The notes below the pieces were generated by a model. The model was not told where the DNA came from. It saw nothing but the letters and a program-made list of their open reading frames with translations, and made no database searches. Positions 7,601 to 26,443 of a stretch of DNA of 45,773 nt are shown here, piece after piece. Origin of the DNA: Granulosicoccus sp. (lineage in GTDB: Bacteria > Pseudomonadota > Gammaproteobacteria > Granulosicoccales > Granulosicoccaceae); NCBI GenBank assembly GCA_023301795.1, contig JALZVU010000016.1:1-45773 (forward strand). The letters are read 5' to 3'. The translations under genes were made by a program, and so were the position numbers. How positions within the stretch are numbered: the stretch's first letter is position 1; each line of letters opens with the position of its first letter.

Positions 7601-8404
7601 ATGCCGGATTTACAGGCAGCGATGGTCGCTGCGCAAAAGGCAGTTGATGCGGCAGAGCAGGTTATTGAGAGCTATCTGGGAAGCGGTGACTGGCAGGTTA
7701 CGCTCAAATCAGATGATTCCCCGGTCACAGAAGTTGATGTGGCCGCAGAAGAGGCAATAAGTGCTGTGTTGCGGGCAGAGTTACCGGAGGCTGTGTTCTT
7801 TGGCGAGGAGACGGGTAAAAGTGACGCCACTGAAACGGCCGCGTTGCTTTGGCTTGTCGATCCTATTGATGGCACCAAGAGTTTTATTCGTGGTATGCCG
7901 TTTTATTCAACACAAATTGCCCTGGCAGTTGATCAGCGCTTGTCTGTTGGAGTCTCCAATGCGCCAGCGTATGGCGAGCGCCTGGTGGCCATTGCAGATG
8001 AGGGCGTGTGGTTGAACGGTAAAGCGGTTCAGGTTAGAGGTTCAGTTGAAAAAATCGAGGATGCGTTTTTATCTTCAGGCAATCTGACATCGTTGGCAAA
8101 AGATGCAGCGGCCTGGCAACGCTATGGTGCTTTGGTTTCGCGTGCACGCAGAGTGCGAGGTTACGGAGATTTTTGCCATTACCATCAGCTGTGTTGCGGT
8201 CAAACGGATCTGATTGTTGAATCGGATGTGAACATTCTCGATATTGCTGCTCTGACCGTTGGTGTGCGTGCTGCCGGTGGTTTGATAACCGACTTGAAAG
8301 GTGACGCTATTACACAAGACACTACATCGGTACTGGCAGCGTGTAGCCCGGCTTTGCATGCACAGACTCTGCAGCTGTTGCAATCCTGCGAAAGCGATCA
8401 GTGA
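7601..8404 (+). CDS. Inositol monophosphatase family phosphatase (HisN/CysQ-like)
   Basis: This is a 267-residue Mg-dependent sugar- or nucleotide-phosphate phosphatase. The start at 7601 has a GAGGG ribosome-binding site ten bases upstream; the longer open frame begins in unrelated upstream DNA. Family motifs are present: SPVTEVD near residue 45, FFGEETG (metal-binding Glu) and WLVDPIDGT (metal-binding Asp pair). The C-terminal metal motif, usually W-D-x-A-A with E-A-G-G, reads I-L-D-I-A-A and A-A-G-G, so the Trp and Glu are replaced while the Asp is kept. Substrate cannot be fixed: histidinol phosphate, 3'-phosphoadenosine 5'-phosphate or inositol phosphate are all possible. Its stop overlaps the start of the cyclase gene by four bases. 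Confidence 0.85.
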   Translation: MPDLQAAMVAAQKAVDAAEQVIESYLGSGDWQVTLKSDDSPVTEVDVAAEEAISAVLRAELPEAVFFGEETGKSDATETAALLWLVDPIDGTKSFIRGMPFYSTQIALAVDQRLSVGVSNAPAYGERLVAIADEGVWLNGKAVQVRGSVEKIEDAFLSSGNLTSLAKDAAAWQRYGALVSRARRVRGYGDFCHYHQLCCGQTDLIVESDVNILDIAALTVGVRAAGGLITDLKGDAITQDTTSVLAACSPALHAQTLQLLQSCESDQ

Positions 8405-9678
8405 AATTTCCGTTTTACAGAGCGAATCATCGCAGCCGAGCCTTCAGCCTGCTTCTGCTAGTTGTGTTGGCTTTGATGCTGTTTACCGGTCTGGGTGTAT
8501 TCCGGCTGTATTTTTCGTTCGATTGGACAACAGGTGATGAGGCCGGACAGTTGTTTGCGTTCAGCATTCGTGGTGGCCAGTCCCTTAATATTTTTGAAGC
8601 AGCTCCGTTTGGACGAGTATTCTGGATATCCCAGTGTCTTCTGGTAGCTCTGTGTGTACTGATGCCGTTTTTTCGTATCGCAGGTGCTGTTGTTCTATCG
8701 GTTGTCGCGGCGGTTGGGGTGACGTTTCTGCATTTGCAGTACCCGTTATCTCCCAGTGGCACGCCGTTAGAGTTTGAGTTACTCACCGTCCTGATCCTGA
8801 CGAGTGTTTATGTGCTGCTTAGCTATTTAGGCTCGAGGCGCGATCAGGTGAAAATAGCCGCCTTGTTATCCAAGTACGTTCCAGAGGAGGTCTCGCAGCA
8901 GTATCAACGAGATGCTAATGCGGTTCCCGAGGCAGGTGAAGAGCGTGATATCAGCGTCTTGTTTTGCGATGTTCGTGAATTTTCTGTTGTGGCCCGGGAC
9001 ATTGATTCCAGAAAGCTTGCTCAGTGGTTGAATCTCTATTTTGGCTTTGTGAGCAAAATCGTCATACGCCATCGTGGAAGCATCGACAAATACATGGGAG
9101 ATAGTGTGATGGCTGTCTGGGGCGCCCCTGTCACAAGCACTACGCATGCATTTGATGCACTTCGTACAGCACTCGAAATACAGAGCGAACTGCATGAATT
9201 AAACGCTCAGTACACGGCGCTGGGCTTGCCACAGATTACTGTGGGTATTGGCATTAGCACAGGTCCTGCAATGGTGGGGCCGCTGGGGTCGGAGTACCGA
9301 ATGGATTACACGGTTATCGGTGATACGGTCAACGTGGCGCAACGTCTTGAAGGGCAGACGCGTAAGTACGAAGTGCCTGTTGTTGTGAGTGATAAGACGA
9401 TGGAAAATGTACCCGATATGCTGTGTCGGGAGCTTGATACGGTTAGCGTGAAAGGGCGTGTAGAACCCGTCACCATGTACCAGCCGTTGTGTATGATCGA
9501 TGACGCCAGCGACGGCTTGCTTGAACAGCTTGAGATGCACGAGCGCGCCATGGCTGCAACCGCTGATGCTCAATGGGAAGAAGCGGTCGAGCTGTTTACC
9601 GAGCTGCGCGATGTGTGGGGCCCGGGAAAGATGTACGAGCTGTATTTGCGCGGCATAGAGATTGCGCGACGAGACTAG
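8401..9678 (+). CDS. Membrane-anchored class III adenylate/guanylate cyclase
   Basis: The 425-residue protein has three predicted membrane segments (about 14-37, 74-112 as one or two passes, and 126-144) followed by a class III cyclase catalytic domain (about 180-370). Metal-binding Asp190 (in LFCDVREF) and Asp234 (in KYMGDS) are present. So are the substrate-specifying Lys230 and Thr304 (in DYTVIGD) and the transition-state pair Asn311 and Arg315. Lys plus Thr fits ATP, so cyclic AMP is the likely product. A GTG start at 8401 lies in the last codons of the phosphatase gene (four-base overlap), implying coupled translation. No sensory domain other than the membrane part is visible. The C-terminal 55 residues are TPR-like helices. 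Confidence 0.88.
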   Translation: MKFPFYRANHRSRAFSLLLLVVLALMLFTGLGVFRLYFSFDWTTGDEAGQLFAFSIRGGQSLNIFEAAPFGRVFWISQCLLVALCVLMPFFRIAGAVVLSVVAAVGVTFLHLQYPLSPSGTPLEFELLTVLILTSVYVLLSYLGSRRDQVKIAALLSKYVPEEVSQQYQRDANAVPEAGEERDISVLFCDVREFSVVARDIDSRKLAQWLNLYFGFVSKIVIRHRGSIDKYMGDSVMAVWGAPVTSTTHAFDALRTALEIQSELHELNAQYTALGLPQITVGIGISTGPAMVGPLGSEYRMDYTVIGDTVNVAQRLEGQTRKYEVPVVVSDKTMENVPDMLCRELDTVSVKGRVEPVTMYQPLCMIDDASDGLLEQLEMHERAMAATADAQWEEAVELFTELRDVWGPGKMYELYLRGIEIARRD

Positions 9679-17819: not shown

Positions 17820-19052
17820 TCACCACTGCACCTGTAGTTCTGCCAGACCATGGAAATGAAACGCGTTTTGGTACTGCGGTTCATCGACCAATGCCAGGTT
17901 TGGCAGGCGTTTAAACAGAACCTGTAACGCAACCCTTAGTTCAAGTTTTGATAGATGTGCGCCTACACAGTAGTGAATCCCAGCACCCAGTGACAGGTGC
18001 GCAGCGTCGTCTCGTTCTGGTATGAATTTATCGGGCTGTTCGAAGCGTTGTGGGCAACGATTGGCCGCCGCCAGTAACAAGCCTACTTCCTCGCCGCGCG
18101 CGATGTTGATGCCCTCGCCGATGGTCACATCTTCTTGCGCGTAGCGAGTGAACAAGTGCAGTGGTGCTGCATAGCGAAGGCACTCCGCCACTATGGCATC
18201 GGCTTGTTCATTGTCGGCCAGTGCGTGCAGTAACGTCTTGCGATCATCTGGAGGGTATTTTTTCAGTAGCGTGAGCACTGCATTACCCAGCTGATGAACC
18301 GTGGCTTCATGGCCTGCATTTAGCAGCAGGATGGCCACAGAGATGATTTCTTCGTCAGTGATCGGCTGCGCATCATCGCGCATGGAAAGCATGTGTGAGA
18401 GCAGATCCTCACCTGGTGCCTTGCGCTTTTGTACAATAACATCGCGAAGAAACGCCTGAAAATCAGCCGCGGCCTGGTTCGCTAGTACTTCTTCATCGTG
18501 CGTTTGCGTCAGCGTATAGACCTTCACCATGGCATGTGACCAAGTGACTAGCTGAGGCCCCGCAGACTCAGGAACGCCCAACAGGCGGGTGATGGCGTTC
18601 AGCGGGATAGGCGTGGCGAAGTGTTCTAGCAGTTCAACATTTTTTGATGCGACAAACTTGTCGATGCAGGCATTGGCCATGGCATTGACTACCGGCTCCA
18701 TTCTGCCGATCTGTCGTGACACAAATGCCCGGTTTACCAGTTTTCGCAAGCGTGTGTGCCCTGGCGGTTCCATGCAGAGCAGCGAAAATTCCTCGGCAGC
18801 AGCAAAACTGCTCAGGTGTTCGGGGATGGCTTTGCCCGGCATACCCGGCGGTGGCAGGCGTGCAAAACGTCGGTCACGCAGCGCACTGTTAACGGCGTTA
18901 TAGCTTAGAACGCACCAGAATCCATACTCCTCCCAGAATATCGGCGACGCCTGAGAGTGCCACTGCGTGTAACATGCGTAGGGGTCTTGAACGAAAATAT
19001 CGTCTCGAAGTCCCTGCCGAACTGTGTTTTCTGGCACGATTCTGTTTGTCAT
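17820..19052 (-). CDS. Cytochrome P450
   Basis: This is a soluble bacterial P450 monooxygenase; the substrate is not known. I chose the ATG at 19052, giving 410 residues, the usual length; the frame is open to 19187 but the added 45 residues are unlike the family. Seen are the C-helix segment E-P-P-G-H-T-R-L-R, the I-helix oxygen-activation motif A-G-H-E-A-T (246-251), the ExxR pair Glu290 and Arg293, and the heme loop L-G-A-G-I-H-Y-C-V-G with the thiolate ligand Cys362. The usual phenylalanine seven residues before the cysteine is leucine here. No ferredoxin or reductase gene is nearby, so electrons must come from elsewhere. The gene is divergent from the receiver protein gene at 19208. Confidence 0.92.
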   Translation of the reverse strand: MTNRIVPENTVRQGLRDDIFVQDPYACYTQWHSQASPIFWEEYGFWCVLSYNAVNSALRDRRFARLPPPGMPGKAIPEHLSSFAAAEEFSLLCMEPPGHTRLRKLVNRAFVSRQIGRMEPVVNAMANACIDKFVASKNVELLEHFATPIPLNAITRLLGVPESAGPQLVTWSHAMVKVYTLTQTHDEEVLANQAAADFQAFLRDVIVQKRKAPGEDLLSHMLSMRDDAQPITDEEIISVAILLLNAGHEATVHQLGNAVLTLLKKYPPDDRKTLLHALADNEQADAIVAECLRYAAPLHLFTRYAQEDVTIGEGINIARGEEVGLLLAAANRCPQRFEQPDKFIPERDDAAHLSLGAGIHYCVGAHLSKLELRVALQVLFKRLPNLALVDEPQYQNAFHFHGLAELQVQW

Positions 19053-19207
19053 GGAGCAGTATTGGACGTATTTGTAGATAAGATCACATCTGCAGAGGTC
19101 GTTGAGACCGTGCACATAGGGTACCTTGTCCGCGTCTTGCATCGTTATTCCATGATGAAACTCTCGAATCAAAATATGCCTTGCCACTCATCAGATCTTT
19201 GGCTTTT

Positions 19208-20977
19208 ATGACCCACCGACTTCTTCTGGTCGAGCAATCGGCCACCATGCGCTACGTTATAGAAAAGCACGCAGAATCGCTGGGTTTTGCTGTGGATGCC
19301 TGTGAGAGCTACCTGCAAGCCACGCAGGCGCTCGATCAACAGTTTCAGCAGTACGGAACCGAATACAGCGGCGTGCTGCTTGGGTGGCCGACAACGGCTC
19401 AGGAGGACGCTACCGCTTGCGCACAGTTGCTGGAAAACAGTGACCACAAAGATCTGCCTGTGGTGGTGATGTCAACAGATATGCGAGCTGAGGCGCGTGC
19501 CTGGGCTGCAGGGCGAGACAATACGGCAGTCCTCGCCTGGAAGGAGTACCAAGGGCTGGAAGCACTGCTGAAGCAGCTTATCGATGTTGCGCCCAATGAA
19601 GATAATGAAGCTGACGCCTCTGACCTCAAACGCGACAATGCGGATGTGCACCTGTTGGTAGTTGATGATTCGGCGACCATTCGCTACTCGTTGCGCGATC
19701 TGTTCCAATTGCAAGGATACCGCGTGACGTTGGCTGCCACGCGCGACGAAGCCATGCGTCATGCCTCAAACACCGCTTTTGACATCGCCGTACTTGACTA
19801 CTATCTCACCGAAACCACTGGGGACGTTCTGTGCCGCGAGTTACTGGCTACTGAGGCCACAGGAGACATCGTGTGCACGGTACTCACGGGTACTTACAGC
19901 GATCATATTATTAAACGCAGTCTTCGCGCGGGTGCAGTTGAATGCATGTTCAAGAACGAGTCCAGCGAATTACTACTGAGCAGAATTGATGCGATCAGCC
20001 GATTTGTTAGGCAGAAACGCCAGATACAAGTAGAGCAACAGCTGCTTGCTGATGTACTTGAATGCGTTGCAGGTGCCATTGTTCTAATTGACAGCGAGCT
20101 GCAAATTGTCTACGTCAACGCGTTAGCCATCGAGGAGCTGGGCCTGGGTGATAAATCTGCCTTGGTGGGTCGTTCGTGTTCTGCACTTCTTGAGACTGAT
20201 GGACCGCAGCCGGCAGGGCAACAATTGCATTCGTCCACGTGGCATCTGCCGGATGGTCGTGAAATTGAAATTGACTATCAGCACTCACTGATTAAATCCA
20301 GCGGGCATGGATTGCTGCGATTTACTCGGCGCATTGTCTCTATCGCCGATGAGGATGTCACTGTACTTCTAAAATCTGACGATCCGGTTGTCACCGTTGG
20401 ACGTGTCATCGACCAGCTTGGGCTTGCCAAAGACTCGAACGCTTTTTTACGCGAAATGCACCAGTACCTTGCAGTTGCTAGACAGGCACAGCGACAAGGG
20501 AATTCGTCGGGTAGTGCAGATGTCCCACGGGTCAGTTTTCTTGTGCTGGATGTCTTTCGCCGCGGCGACAATGGAGATCTGGAATCAATAGCGGCTCATG
20601 ACGAACTGGCGTTACAGGTCAGCGAGTCTCTGCTCGGTGTGTTTAGTCGTGAAAATCATGTGGCTAAGCTTGGGGACAATCGCTACGGGTTTCTGATGTG
20701 TCTTCTTGAAGACTCGCAGGGCTATGTTCTTACGCGTAAGATTATGCAGCGGTGTCTTGAAGTGGTACCGAAAGATTCTCAGGCAACAACGCACGAGCGG
20801 CATCTTAGCTGTAGTGCCAGCTTGCTCAGTCTGACCCGCAATGCGGCGCAACCCATGAACTTGTTAGTGCAGCATACATTCAAGGGCATGGAGCTGGTGA
20901 ATACGCGTGAGCCTGATCAAGCACTGCTTCTGGATGTTCGACGCATGTTGAGTGCTTATCCGGCCGTTAGTGGTTAG
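19208..20977 (+). CDS. REC-REC-PAS-degenerate GGDEF signalling protein
   Basis: The 589-residue protein has an unusual layout. The first receiver domain (about 1-125) is degenerate: the phosphate-accepting aspartate is replaced by Gly59 (in L-L-G-W) and the acidic pocket is E-Q instead of D-D. The second receiver (about 145-265) looks active, with Asp153/154, Asp197 (in V-L-D-Y-Y), Thr227 and Lys249. A PAS-like domain follows (about 280-345). The C-terminal domain (about 440-580) resembles a GGDEF domain, but the catalytic signature is replaced by G-D-N-R-Y-G at 489-494, so it should not make cyclic di-GMP. There is no EAL domain. It is divergent from the P450 gene, with 155 bases between the starts. 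A role as a phosphorylation-controlled adaptor is inferred. Confidence 0.8.
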   Translation: MTHRLLLVEQSATMRYVIEKHAESLGFAVDACESYLQATQALDQQFQQYGTEYSGVLLGWPTTAQEDATACAQLLENSDHKDLPVVVMSTDMRAEARAWAAGRDNTAVLAWKEYQGLEALLKQLIDVAPNEDNEADASDLKRDNADVHLLVVDDSATIRYSLRDLFQLQGYRVTLAATRDEAMRHASNTAFDIAVLDYYLTETTGDVLCRELLATEATGDIVCTVLTGTYSDHIIKRSLRAGAVECMFKNESSELLLSRIDAISRFVRQKRQIQVEQQLLADVLECVAGAIVLIDSELQIVYVNALAIEELGLGDKSALVGRSCSALLETDGPQPAGQQLHSSTWHLPDGREIEIDYQHSLIKSSGHGLLRFTRRIVSIADEDVTVLLKSDDPVVTVGRVIDQLGLAKDSNAFLREMHQYLAVARQAQRQGNSSGSADVPRVSFLVLDVFRRGDNGDLESIAAHDELALQVSESLLGVFSRENHVAKLGDNRYGFLMCLLEDSQGYVLTRKIMQRCLEVVPKDSQATTHERHLSCSASLLSLTRNAAQPMNLLVQHTFKGMELVNTREPDQALLLDVRRMLSAYPAVSG

Positions 20978-20982
20978 CACCT

Positions 20983-22497
20983 TTAGTGAAAAACTCTTAG
21001 TTCTCCAACGCGATTTGATGGCGCTGAGCCATTGCTTACAGGCGTGGTCATTATTAGGGTTTTGCCATCGGGCGATAGCAGCACAGTTTGTGCAAATGCC
21101 TGTTTGGCCAGAGGCGTTAGCTGATGTGGTAGTTCCAGAGCGCTATGCCACTGCCGCTCGTTCACAAGGTAGGTATACGTGCTTAGTTCTGCTGATTCGC
21201 TGGTTAGACTCTGCCATCCCAATGCAACGGTATTCAGATCATCACTAGCTGAGAATCGTAGTGATGCCATTACGTCGGTGGTCGGTGGAGCACTTATCGA
21301 ATCTATTATTTGAACATCCGTGGTCTGGGAATTTTCTGAATCCTGGCTAGTATTCAAACGCCACATAACCGGTGATCGTTGGTCGATAGAGACGGTATCC
21401 CAGCCTGCAACAATAATGGATGATCCCTCGCTATTGGAATGAAGGCTTACCTCATTGTGCGCATTTACGCCTTGAATCAACCGACGTCCGACATTCTTCC
21501 ACGTTGATTCGTGCTCATGAGAACTTAGCCATAGTTGTCCATTCTCAAGTGTTACTACATGGACGATATTAAGTTGGCTGTTAACGGTGACAGCTTTTAT
21601 CGTGGCGTTTTGAGTCACAGATACAGGCGTCTCGATATTCCAGGCAAGTTGGTTACGTCGAAAAAGCAGCACGTTGTCAGCGGTATGCAAAAGGAGCGCA
21701 TCGCCGTTGTCTGAAAGGGTGATTTTACGGCTTGGGTCCACGTTAGCCAATTCTGGTGCGGACAAAGTGGACGTTGTGAACCAGTTTTCTCCCAAGCGCT
21801 CGATAATGCGAATGGTAGGCTGCGCGGTGTCGCTCACCATCAGCGCAGCCAGAGTGTCACCTGATTCTGAGCTTACGATGCTGTCGATTGACGCCGATGC
21901 CAAGTTATCCAGCCCAATAGGCGAGGCTGCTATCCATCTGCCTTCAATGTGAAAGTAGACTTGAATAGCACCCCTGACTGGCAGCGTTGCAAATATGACG
22001 CTCGCATCGTGATTAGTCGTGATGTGCTCAGCAAACCGTTCGCTCTCAATAAATTCGCTGGGTCTGATAGTTGCCGTGGTGTTAGCCAATAGCCCTGTCA
22101 AAGGTACCTTGGCTGAACTCACGCAACCGAGCGGATCGCACAGTTCAACTCTGAATTGCTCGTTATTCCAGATACGACGAGCGGATTTGCTTTCAATGGT
22201 AATGCTTGTGGTTTCAGAGCCCATATTGCCTTGAATCAGAATTTCTTCGTTAAGCGAAGGATTGTAGGCGTAGAGATTTGCTGTCTGATCGCGGCTGTCC
22301 GTTTGCCAGGTAAACACTAGTGTTTCAGGCGCCGCCGTTATGAGAAGTTCAGGTTGCGCAGGCGGCTGCAGGGAATCGCTGTTTAACTCGGCGGGCGAAC
22401 TATCAAGCTTGCTAGTAGAGTTCTCACTGGGGGAGGGATCGCTGGCGCAAGCGCTTAGATGGAGTGCAACGACGAGAAGCAAAATGAAGGATTTCAC
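20983..22497 (-). CDS. Large lipoprotein of unknown function
   Basis: With a GTG start at 22497 the protein opens with a classic lipoprotein signal: M-K-S-F, a hydrophobic run, then the lipobox L-S-A-C with Cys17. A TTG at 22566 would add 23 residues ahead of the signal and is less likely; the start is uncertain either way. After a serine/proline-rich linker (about 18-45) comes a fibronectin-III-like stretch (about 48-125). About 370 residues follow with repeated beta-strand patterns and S-D-N-G-D-A or S-P-D-G-K turns, which suggest a beta-propeller. It is probably anchored to the inner face of the outer membrane. Function unknown. It converges with the receiver protein gene with only five bases between stops. 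Confidence 0.75.
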   Translation of the reverse strand: MKSFILLLVVALHLSACASDPSPSENSTSKLDSSPAELNSDSLQPPAQPELLITAAPETLVFTWQTDSRDQTANLYAYNPSLNEEILIQGNMGSETTSITIESKSARRIWNNEQFRVELCDPLGCVSSAKVPLTGLLANTTATIRPSEFIESERFAEHITTNHDASVIFATLPVRGAIQVYFHIEGRWIAASPIGLDNLASASIDSIVSSESGDTLAALMVSDTAQPTIRIIERLGENWFTTSTLSAPELANVDPSRKITLSDNGDALLLHTADNVLLFRRNQLAWNIETPVSVTQNATIKAVTVNSQLNIVHVVTLENGQLWLSSHEHESTWKNVGRRLIQGVNAHNEVSLHSNSEGSSIIVAGWDTVSIDQRSPVMWRLNTSQDSENSQTTDVQIIDSISAPPTTDVMASLRFSASDDLNTVALGWQSLTSESAELSTYTYLVNERQWHSALELPHQLTPLAKQAFAQTVLLSPDGKTLIMTTPVSNGSAPSNRVGELRVFH

Positions 22498-22589
22498 AGC
22501 AGTGAGTGTCCGCGCCAGTAATGCAAAAGAAGCGCGGATGACATCAGTGACCTTCAGCTTTAACAAGTATTCGGTTTGAGCCGTCTGGA

Positions 22590-23972: not shown

Positions 23973-25199
23973 TCATGAATAATCCGGGTTTGAGCTAATG
24001 CCACTGAGAGGAACTTTGAGTGCATCGATGGCCTCTTGTAAGCCATCGAGCGATAAGGGATACATGCGGTTGTGCATCAGCTCGCGAGTCATGCGTACTG
24101 AAGGTGTGCTGTCCCACCATTCACGCGCTTCCGGATTTAGCCATACGCAATGTGGAAAAGCCACTTGCAAGCGTTTAAGCCATAGTGCACCGGGTTCTTC
24201 GTTCCAGTGCTCCACGCTTCCACCGGGCACAGCTATTTCGTAAGGGCTCATGGTGGCATCGCCTACAATGATCAATCTGTGATCGTGCCCAAAACGGCGA
24301 AGCAGCTCAACAGTGGGTGTGGTTTGTGTATGACGCCGGGCGTTGCTCTGCCACACACGTTCGTACATGAAATTGTGGAACCAGAATGTGTCGAGCCGTT
24401 TAAATTCTGTGCGTGCCGCTGAGAACAAGGTTTCACATACTTGTGCGTGATAGTCCATGGATCCACCAATATCGATTAGCAGCAATACCTTGATGGCGTT
24501 CTGCCTTTCGGCACGCATGTGGATATCCAGCAAGCCAGCGTTGTTAGCCGTTGCACGAATGGTGGTGTCCAGATCCAGCGAATCGGGTCGGCCATCACGG
24601 GCAAGGCGGCGCAGTTTGCGCAGCGCCATCTTGAAATTACGTGTGCCCAACTGCTTGTCGCCATCAAGATCGCGGAATTGGCGTTTTTCCCATACTTTGA
24701 CAGCCTTTCCCTGACGCTTGGGACCATCGCCGATACGGATGCCTTCGGGATTGTAGCCACTGTGTCCGAAGGGCGAAGTGCCCCCAGTACCTATCCAGCG
24801 GCTGCCGCCGTGGTGTTCCTCGGTTTGTTCCTTCAAGCGTTCAGCGAGGGTTTCCATGAGTTTGTCCCAACCTCCCATGGCCTCTACCTGAGCCTTTTGT
24901 TCTTCACTCAAGGCATCTTTGTCTAGGGATCGTAGCCAGTCTTCAGGGATCGGTGCCTTTAATGAATCAAGCAGTTCATCGAAAGCCTGGGTCTGGCCAC
25001 TCCAGTACAGAGAGAAAACCTGATCAAAGCGATCGTACAACGCTTCATTCTTGATGAGTGCCAGACGGGCGAAGGCATAGAAGCGATCGATGTCCAGCGT
25101 ACCAATACCTAACGACAAGCCGCGCATAAGCAACAGCCACTCAGTAAGTGACACGGGTATGCCTGCGGCGCGCAGTTTGTCATGAAAATCCAGCAACAT
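23973..25199 (-). CDS. VWA domain protein, CoxE-like, partner of MoxR ATPase
   Basis: The 408-residue protein has an N-terminal helical domain (about 1-125), a glycine-rich linker (about 128-165) and a von Willebrand factor A domain (about 225-395). The metal-ion site reads D-I-G-G-S at 243-247, the variant usual for this bacterial CoxE-like family. The start at 25199 (MLLDFHDKL) matches family members; the upstream in-frame extension to 25277 overlaps the end of the MoxR gene. It follows the MoxR gene by 31 bases on the same strand. MoxR-VWA pairs are known to act as chaperone-like machines for enzyme or complex maturation; the client here is not indicated. Confidence 0.88.
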   Translation of the reverse strand: MLLDFHDKLRAAGIPVSLTEWLLLMRGLSLGIGTLDIDRFYAFARLALIKNEALYDRFDQVFSLYWSGQTQAFDELLDSLKAPIPEDWLRSLDKDALSEEQKAQVEAMGGWDKLMETLAERLKEQTEEHHGGSRWIGTGGTSPFGHSGYNPEGIRIGDGPKRQGKAVKVWEKRQFRDLDGDKQLGTRNFKMALRKLRRLARDGRPDSLDLDTTIRATANNAGLLDIHMRAERQNAIKVLLLIDIGGSMDYHAQVCETLFSAARTEFKRLDTFWFHNFMYERVWQSNARRHTQTTPTVELLRRFGHDHRLIIVGDATMSPYEIAVPGGSVEHWNEEPGALWLKRLQVAFPHCVWLNPEAREWWDSTPSVRMTRELMHNRMYPLSLDGLQEAIDALKVPLSGISSNPDYS

Positions 25200-25230
25200 T
25201 GATGATGCAATACCTTTAGCTTGTGAAAAA

Positions 25231-26067
25231 TTAACGCTTATTCTGTTGCTGCTTATGCAGAAAAATAATACGTTCAAACAAATGGATATCCTGCTCGTTT
25301 TTCAGTAAAGCACCGTGCATTCGCGGTAGTACTGTTCGTATATCATCAGCACCCAGGGCGTCAGCGGGTAAATCATCCGCGATAATAAGCTTCAGCCAAT
25401 CGAGTAACTCAGAGGTTGAGGGTTTCTTTTTCAGGCCGGGCACTTCACGCAAATCGAAAAAGATATCCATCGCAGCTTTCAGTAAGTCACTCTTGATGGA
25501 TGGGTAGTGTGATTCAACGATACGCTGCATGGTGGAGCGATCGGGAAAACTGATGTAGTGAAAAAAGCACCGACGCAGAAATGCATCGGGTAGTTCTTTT
25601 TCATTGTTGCTGGTAATGATAATCAGGGGGCGTTTTTTTGCACTGATGGTTTGTCGAGTCTCGTAAACCTCGAACGACATCTTGTCCAGCTCTTGCAAAA
25701 GATCGTTAGGAAACTCTATATCGGCCTTGTCAATTTCATCAATAAGCACCACGGCACGCTCTTCGGTCTCGAATGCCTCCCAAAGAACCCCTTTAACGAT
25801 GTAGTTGCCAATGTCGGCTACCTTATCGTCCCCTAATTGCGAGTCACGTAAGCGTGACACTGCATCGTATTCGTACAAGCCTTGCTGGGCCCGGGTAGTA
25901 GACTTGATATGCCAGCTGAGTAAGGGTGCGCCAAGCCGACGGGCAACTTCATGTGCAAGTTCGGTTTTACCCGTTCCCGGCTCACCCTTGATCAATAGTG
26001 GTCGCTCTAGCGTTAAGGAAGCATCAACGGCTAGCTGCAGATCGTCTGTAGTTATGTAAGTGCTCAC
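25231..26067 (-). CDS. MoxR-family AAA+ ATPase
   Basis: The 278-residue ATPase carries Walker A G-E-P-G-T-G-K-T at 28-35, Walker B with V-L-I-D-E-I-D, sensor 1 in I-I-T-S-N-N and an arginine finger region with L-R-R-C-F-F. I favour a GTG start at 26067, four bases after the HIT stop and with AGGA upstream; a TTG at 26088 would add seven residues and overlap the HIT gene by 17 bases. It forms a pair with the VWA protein downstream. ATP-driven remodelling of a protein target is inferred from the family. Confidence 0.9.
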   Translation of the reverse strand: MSTYITTDDLQLAVDASLTLERPLLIKGEPGTGKTELAHEVARRLGAPLLSWHIKSTTRAQQGLYEYDAVSRLRDSQLGDDKVADIGNYIVKGVLWEAFETEERAVVLIDEIDKADIEFPNDLLQELDKMSFEVYETRQTISAKKRPLIIITSNNEKELPDAFLRRCFFHYISFPDRSTMQRIVESHYPSIKSDLLKAAMDIFFDLREVPGLKKKPSTSELLDWLKLIIADDLPADALGADDIRTVLPRMHGALLKNEQDIHLFERIIFLHKQQQNKR

Positions 26068-26071
26068 GAGC

Positions 26072-26443
26072 TTATGATTTCCTGACAATCATGGGGCCAA
26101 CGTCTTCGCCGCCAAGCAAATGCATATGGATGTGCGGTACTTCCTGTCGACCGTGTTCGCCGCAGTTTATGATCAGGCGATAGCCTGAGTCGTTAATGCC
26201 TTCATCGCGGGCAATTTTTCGAGCAACGCTGAGCATGCGTCCCATTGCTGCCTCGTCCTCAGGGGTGACATCATCCACTGACGGTATGTGCCTGTTGGGT
26301 ACGATGAGCACATGCGTGGGCAGGCGCGGACTGATGTCACGAAAAGCTGTGACTAGATCGTCCTGGTAGAGCATGTCAGAGGGTAGCTCCTTTCTGATGA
26401 TTTTAGAAAAAAGCGTTTCTTCAATGGATTGATCGGATGCCAC
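26072..26443 (-). CDS. HIT family nucleotide hydrolase (HinT-like)
   Basis: The 123-residue protein belongs to the histidine triad family, which hydrolyses purine nucleoside phosphoramidates such as AMP-lysine. The triad H-I-H-M-H is at 104-108, and the early F-S-K-I-I-R-K-E-L and A-F-R-D-I-S-P-R segments are typical of HinT. Translation begins at a GTG with a strong GAGGAA site seven bases upstream. It heads the minus-strand series that continues to MoxR and VWA, four bases before the favoured MoxR start. It is divergent from the cobalamin adenosyltransferase gene. Confidence 0.93.

Follow-up and report, generated by a model that had tools for sequence, protein, structure and literature searches.

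A Granulosicoccus response regulator that most likely neither makes nor degrades cyclic di-GMP and keeps one intact receiver

Results

The window analysed here is the whole 45,773-nucleotide contig JALZVU010000016.1 of Granulosicoccus sp. (assembly GCA_023301795.1). Judged from its sequence, the gene at 19208–20977 (+) most likely encodes a response regulator that no longer makes or degrades cyclic di-GMP (c-di-GMP). According to the open reading frame (ORF), alignment and structural model, its 589-amino-acid (aa) product consists of a pseudo-receiver, a receiver, a PAS domain and a pseudo-GGDEF domain. The protein belongs to a clade of short relatives that are without EAL and without most GTP, metal and c-di-GMP (I-site) residues, and in which the GGDEF fold and both receivers are conserved. 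We favour, with moderate confidence, the reading that it is a non-enzymatic, phosphorylation-controlled adaptor.

Domain architecture

The start was placed at the ATG at 19208, which the alignment of relatives favours over the TTG at 19181 where the mechanically called ORF begins; the stop codon occupies 20975–20977. When the 589-aa protein was scanned against Pfam with E up to 5, only receiver 2 was above the cut-off (E 5e-17), PAS gave a sub-threshold match (E 0.0039), and GGDEF, EAL and receiver 1 were not recognised. A convergent ORF ends five bases from the stop codon, leaving no place for a following EAL phosphodiesterase domain. A preliminary description of the gene had proposed a dead receiver, an intact receiver (Asp197), a PAS-like domain and a pseudo-GGDEF domain, with no EAL domain behind it, and both this order and the lack of EAL were borne out by alignment, Pfam and structure prediction. 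The layout recurs across many orthologs and is thus not a product of chance. A full-length AlphaFold2 model, built from a 72-row alignment taken from 77 candidates, had a mean per-residue confidence (pLDDT) of 88.9 and a predicted template modelling score (pTM) of 0.51, so that single domains look reliable and the arrangement between domains does not.

Relatives and probable loss of the EAL domain

Two sources supplied the relatives: 57 genomes around the window, of which 53 gave some match (in many cases to receivers alone), and a pattern scan of reference genomes, in which 80 of 89 were retained; the set is not exhaustive. Briefly, 110 locus hits were reduced to 86 by removing identical proteins and three cut by contig ends (L056, L081 and L094), and nine added rows gave 95 distinct rows (the window protein and 94 relatives, with L099 trimmed to its last 870 residues). 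Of these, 58 were long (over 780 aa) and 37 short (under 780 aa). Fifteen rows carry a long-branch flag, and some of their joins may be false. Plasmid records yielded 16 weak matches, none spanning 80% of the query.

The long members of the family are built as pseudo-receiver, receiver, PAS, GGDEF and EAL. Pfam recognised both GGDEF and EAL in all ten long rows scanned (L054, L060, L067, L099, L105, L107 and L116–L119), and the motif DDFG, which we take to be typical of EAL, was present in all 58. Their record titles include Saccharospirillum, Chromatiales, Thiodiazotropha, Ectothiorhodospiraceae, Methylococcales and Lysobacterales. EAL was found in none of the eight scanned short rows (the window, L051, L053 and L111–L115) of the 37. 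When a tree was built from the two receivers (the midpoint root serves drawing only), one change divided short from long rows (SH-aLRT 100), and the short clade comprised the window's family together with L051 and L052, two metagenome-assembled genomes labelled otherwise. An assembly fault as the cause of shortness was rejected, given 37 distinct rows and a conserved C-terminal tail. We infer that EAL was lost in the short clade rather than gained elsewhere, because a vestigial GGDEF domain remains and the long form is widespread. L051 is intermediate, having no EAL, a recognisable GGDEF domain (E 3.2e-12) and the motif GNGQFG. In the long rows L105, L107 and L119 the GGDEF motif is degenerate and EAL is retained, which indicates that the motif was lost more than once.

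At L051 (6001–11444), a 1193-aa PAS-GGDEF-EAL protein is encoded on the same strand, 38 bp past the stop of the EAL-less protein, and is a candidate partner; in L052 the corresponding position holds a 1195-aa ORF.

A family-wide pseudo-receiver and an intact receiver

Receiver 1 (residues 1–126; 19208–19585, +) adopted a receiver fold in the AlphaFold2 model, and its profile matched receiver structures (best E 2e-7), as the preliminary description had suggested checking. PF00072 matched it weakly in 15 of 31 members (best E 0.0037). The residues at its catalytic places are E9-Q10 (acidic pair), G59 (Asp), S89 (Thr) and K112 (Lys); with E9, Q10 and G59 in place of key phosphotransfer residues, the domain is a pseudo-receiver. 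The G59 codon, where a phospho-acceptor Asp would be expected, lies at 19382–19384 (+). Position 59 was Gly in 94 of 95 rows and Glu in one; Asp occurred in none, long GGDEF and EAL relatives included, confirming the described absence of the aspartate. A recent loss of this Asp was accordingly rejected, G59 being family-wide. E9 was Glu in 93 rows and Asp in two, R103 was kept in 93 and W111 in 94. The near-invariance of E9, G59, R103 and W111 suggests that the pseudo-receiver has a selected function, such as an adaptor surface, a partner site or a ligand pocket. The preliminary description had also taken the dead receiver as a hint of an adaptor role, and this argument was not supported: since the long members share the dead receiver, it is part of the ancestral design and by itself says nothing about such a role.

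Receiver 2 (residues 146–268; 19643–20011, +) carries the full set of response regulator residues, namely D153, D154, D197, T227 and K249, which were conserved in 95, 92, 94, 91 and 95 of the 95 rows, respectively. D197 (codon 19796–19798, +), described beforehand as the mark of an intact receiver, is the predicted phospho-acceptor. Residues 241–251 (AGAVECMFKNE) were invariant in the 72-row alignment, and a long helix (residues 253–285; 19964–20062, +) that leads from receiver 2 towards PAS in the model is a predicted signalling helix. Three short relatives, L115 (5980–7998), L114 (348–2126) and L112 (5970–7610), have lost receiver 2 residues (Asp197 is Glu in L115); these are long branches of unsure alignment.

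The C-terminus retains a GGDEF fold without most catalytic residues

A PAS-like domain (residues 285–375; 20060–20332, +), supported by the sub-threshold Pfam match and by several scanned relatives above the cut-off for PAS models, is followed by the pseudo-GGDEF domain (residues 393–589; 20384–20974, +). Sequence profiles and structural models indicate that this C-terminal domain retains the GGDEF fold. A profile of 22 short proteins, which left out the intermediates L051 and L052, matched, in hhalign, a profile of the family's intact GGDEF domains (30 sequences; Prob 95.5, E 1.4e-8). AlphaFold2 modelled the domain alone (22 rows) with pLDDT 92.4 and pTM 0.89, and Foldseek returned 30 matches with E up to 0.001, all to chains that contain GGDEF, at TM-scores of about 0.5 when normalised by query length. 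A second structural aligner matched it to DgcZ (Z 15.6, root-mean-square deviation (rmsd) 3.1, 152 residues aligned), MorA (Z 14.8, rmsd 3.2, 152 aligned), PA0861, presumably RbdA (Z 14.5, rmsd 3.4, 154 aligned), and PleD (Z 14.2, rmsd 3.5, 153 aligned). GCN4 coiled-coil chains topped the C-terminal profile search; they covered short helical stretches only and were set aside as composition matches, and the WspR GGDEF domain followed them (E 1.2e-5, spanning most of the domain). Thus the GGDEF-like C-terminus of the preliminary description stands, and neither of the findings that would have overturned it, a C-terminus without the GGDEF fold or close homologs with a standard motif and an intact receiver 1 Asp, was obtained.

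At the place of GGDEF(A/G) the protein has GDNRYG (G489 to G494; 20672–20689, +). In 31 of the 37 short rows Arg replaces the Glu of the motif, and the other motif residues and those of ND, GHxxGD and KxxGRN are mostly lost across the clade, so that catalysis is not expected. The first metal Asp persists in 23 of the 37, the window protein among them; several other GTP and metal residues that an active diguanylate cyclase would need are gone from the window protein. Nor does the protein have an RxxD I-site for c-di-GMP, as S and N occupy the aligned R and D places.

These residues bear on whether the protein could be a non-enzymatic nucleotide receptor that reports how much c-di-GMP or GTP is present, by still binding it with the pseudo-GGDEF domain or the pseudo-receiver. 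We regard this as unlikely: the I-site Asp survives in only seven of the 37 short rows, and the window protein has Asn there as well as in place of the KxxGRN Lys. There are precedents, however, in the degenerate GGDEF domain of SgmT and the pseudo-receiver of ShkA, both of which are described in the available portions of the sources as binding c-di-GMP (PMC4877007; PMC7010744), and the 43 GGDEF matches in the window genome make it likely that the signal is present.

Constraint on the receivers and the C-terminus

In the short clade, relative constraint has moved toward the receivers. Mean identity among 31 of the 37 short rows (leaving out L051, L052 and L112–L115) was 0.54 for receiver 1, 0.66 for receiver 2, 0.29 for PAS and 0.35 for the C-terminus; the values for the 58 long rows were 0.34, 0.59, 0.48 and 0.52, respectively. 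The low identity of PAS and the C-terminus, together with the further losses in L112–L115, is what would be expected if the C-terminal half were a decaying remnant that drifts after the loss of EAL, leaving the receivers to act alone, perhaps as a phosphate sink or a dimer. We consider this quite unlikely, as the ratio of nonsynonymous to synonymous substitution rates (dN/dS) of the C-terminus was 0.02–0.25 in seven of the ten pairs with usable dS. Moreover, the Arg of the motif is conserved, R510, K511 and Q514 are kept in 36, 35 and 35 of the 37 short rows, and the clade shares a conserved C-terminal tail (consensus about LLLDLRRMLPxYP; 20915–20962, +).

Gene neighbourhood and a CRP-type box

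A divergent cytochrome P450 gene (17820–19052, −; Pfam p450, E 1.5e-21) lies upstream. Its mechanically called ORF reaches a GTG at 19187; relatives place the start at 19052, which leaves 155 bp between the genes. The preliminary description had raised possible co-regulation of the pair and asked whether a P450 is always adjacent. The divergent P450 adjoined the gene in 28 of 37 short rows, was absent in eight and could not be judged in L020 owing to a contig end; it was found in none of the 58 long rows within the available flanks, which vary in length. No match to this P450 was found at E 1e-10 in the whole genomes G014 (98% complete), G031 (100%) and G034 (80%); G027 had only distant P450 matches, and G029, G030 and G033 carried an ortholog (54–55%) elsewhere in the genome. 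An obligate partnership is thus ruled out by the eight rows and by whole genomes that have the gene and no such P450.

The place of the box TGTGAN6TCACA in relatives, which we take to be the CRP consensus, is occupied in the window by the degenerate sequence TGTAGATAAGATCACA (19073–19088, no strand assigned), which matches at 8/10 bases and is not significant alone (shuffle p 0.13). A box with at least 9/10 bases was found upstream in 25 of the 37 clade rows, 15 of them perfect; the box of L008 sits at another place. Among long relatives, 2 of 56 had the box. Across 37 long loci of the clade (L046 and L128 being one locus, the window's locus excluded), 24 sites of at least 9/10 lay in upstream regions of the clade, versus 16 in 438 kb elsewhere, none of them perfect; three of these 16 (L121, L122 and L125) are again upstream of the gene, displaced by an extended ORF start. 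The half-sites persist between lineages and the inner six bases vary. The window genome encodes a CRP over the curated cut-off (306 bits, helix SREMVGR) and has seven class III cyclase matches and none of class I. A CRP-type regulator therefore probably controls transcription in many close relatives, to go by these sites; with the window's own box at 8/10 and p 0.13, such control is doubtful in its strain.

The box was tied to the P450, occurring in 24 of 28 rows with P450 versus one of nine without, which fits shared control of both genes; the P450 rows without it were the window (L001) and L012 at 8/10, and L027 and L112 at 6/10. Other observations point to the box being this gene's own. L003, the single close relative without P450, keeps 9/10; the relocated P450s are without the box (6/10); and the distance from the box varies somewhat less to the start of this gene (64 to 184) than to that of the P450 (−7 to 208). 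The P450's adjacency in 28 of the clade's rows and in no long row, and its link with the box, might suggest that the protein is dedicated to regulating the divergent P450 or its product. We hold this to be very improbable, as G014, G031 and the 80% complete G034 have the gene without this P450, the orthologs in G029, G030 and G033 lie elsewhere without the box, and the neighbours gshA, moeA, VWA and MoxR are retained too, so that adjacency is not special. Co-regulation of the pair may thus hold; constant adjacency does not.

Most clade loci that extend far enough have the order gshA-moeA-(P450)-this gene-(lipoprotein-like gene)-VWA-MoxR-cobO; in L113–L115, only gshA and moeA of this block remain. 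The names gshA, cobO and lipoprotein are our own reading, and Pfam was run on MoeA, P450, VWA and MoxR. The convergent lipoprotein-like gene (20983–22566, −) had no Pfam match at E 0.01, and relatives of it occupy the same place in many Granulosicoccus loci. VWA (CoxE-like) and AAA/MoxR-like genes (23973–26088, −) lie near the gene in many clade loci, as they do in L051 and L052, where the P450 is absent. About 10 kb upstream is a gene for one of the seven class III nucleotide cyclases (8401–9678, +; PF00211 at 8941–9480, E 3.5e-19); its N-terminus is apparently membrane-bound. Among the neighbours of the response regulator gene that were scanned, none was recognised as a kinase. The region 19000–19260 contained no sigma-70 or terminator pattern; within the divergent region, all 11 close relatives aligned there share TCTTGCA (19135–19141, +).

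Discussion

The proposal of an adaptor rather than an enzyme, made in the preliminary description, is partly supported by the loss of catalytic residues and by the one intact receiver. It is no longer helped by the dead receiver, and the adaptor role, like the phosphorylation switch, kinase, partner and ligand, is inferred. Several observations weigh against it. The domain arrangement is uncertain (whole-protein pTM 0.51), and L112, L114 and L115 lose receiver 2 residues as well. Retention of the first metal Asp makes some nucleotide or metal binding possible. Within the clade, conservation is lowest in PAS and the C-terminus, which could mean drift, and three L020 pairs gave a C-terminal dN/dS of 0.50–0.60 (dN 0.83–0.85, with dS probably saturated).

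If the protein is a phosphorylation-controlled adaptor, its ancestor would have made and broken c-di-GMP, and the lineage would have lost both catalytic ends and kept the phosphorylation switch. D197 would be phosphorylated by a histidine kinase, and receiver 1, having no acceptor Asp, may serve as a fixed adaptor or as a ligand or partner input to receiver 2. The change would travel via the conserved end of receiver 2 (241–251) and the helix 253–285 to PAS and the pseudo-GGDEF domain, which might act by protein contact, perhaps through R510, K511, Q514 and the C-terminal tail. A bolder version, which we offer as a speculation, is that a two-headed c-di-GMP enzyme without both activities became a phosphorylation-switched scaffold whose pseudo-receiver (E9, G59, R103, W111) provides an as yet unrecognised input for a ligand or partner, and that most of the clade is wired to cyclic AMP (cAMP) and CRP, with cAMP steering a dead c-di-GMP module.

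The short clade offers a case in which a bifunctional c-di-GMP enzyme became a probable non-enzyme by one change in the tree, with intact relatives for comparison. The family provides a pseudo-receiver with near-invariant residues across many gammaproteobacterial lineages; the motif Glu to Arg change and the C-terminal tail are new conserved features, and the CRP-type box upstream in the clade is also new. Literature searches, in which other wordings and most subscription journals were outside the scope, found neither the wording 'REC-REC-PAS-GGDEF-EAL' nor Granulosicoccus paired with c-di-GMP.

Among known systems, PleD of Caulobacter, an active cyclase of the Rec-Rec-GGDEF type without PAS, has two receivers before a GGDEF fold in a similar order, and was the best chain for the whole model in Foldseek (TM 0.26). 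Unlike PleD, the present protein has lost the catalytic residues and begins with a dead receiver. PA0861, a PAS-GGDEF-EAL protein (5xgb), is the best solved relative of the corresponding part of the long members, although its solved part is without receivers and its catalytic motif is present. FimX stands for a type in which GGDEF is followed by EAL, in degenerate form in FimX itself. FimX and CfcR (REC-PAS-GGDEF-EAL) share the order of receiver, PAS and GGDEF, whereas the protein described here has no EAL and an extra N-terminal pseudo-receiver. CfcR requires its receiver Asp D65 and has cyclase activity, according to the available portion of its description (PMC4951495).

In the accessible parts of the papers, the GGDEF domain of TmoK neither makes nor binds c-di-GMP (PMC4877007), and GGDEF/EAL proteins working via an interactome in E. 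coli are the topic of PMC5635695. For pseudo-receivers, ShkA, likened here by description only, has a dead receiver directly ahead of a second receiver; unlike ours, it lies within a histidine kinase and, as the available text has it, binds c-di-GMP (PMC7010744). The mechanisms of bacterial pseudo-receivers 'remain a mystery' in the words of the accessible part of a 2025 review (PMC12632262). CbrR of Campylobacter jejuni is, like the present protein, an orphan response regulator with two receivers and a variant GGDEF domain, with no EAL described in the available portion of its report (PMC8779298). It differs in having predicted phosphorylation sites in both receivers (D53 and D174), in a variant I-site, KGRD, that binds c-di-GMP, and in that PAS is not mentioned in that portion; low c-di-GMP was detected with CbrR in E. 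coli, so weak synthesis is possible (PMC8779298). By their manner of working, the nearest known proteins would appear to be CbrR and CfcR/FimX, with ShkA for the pseudo-receiver.
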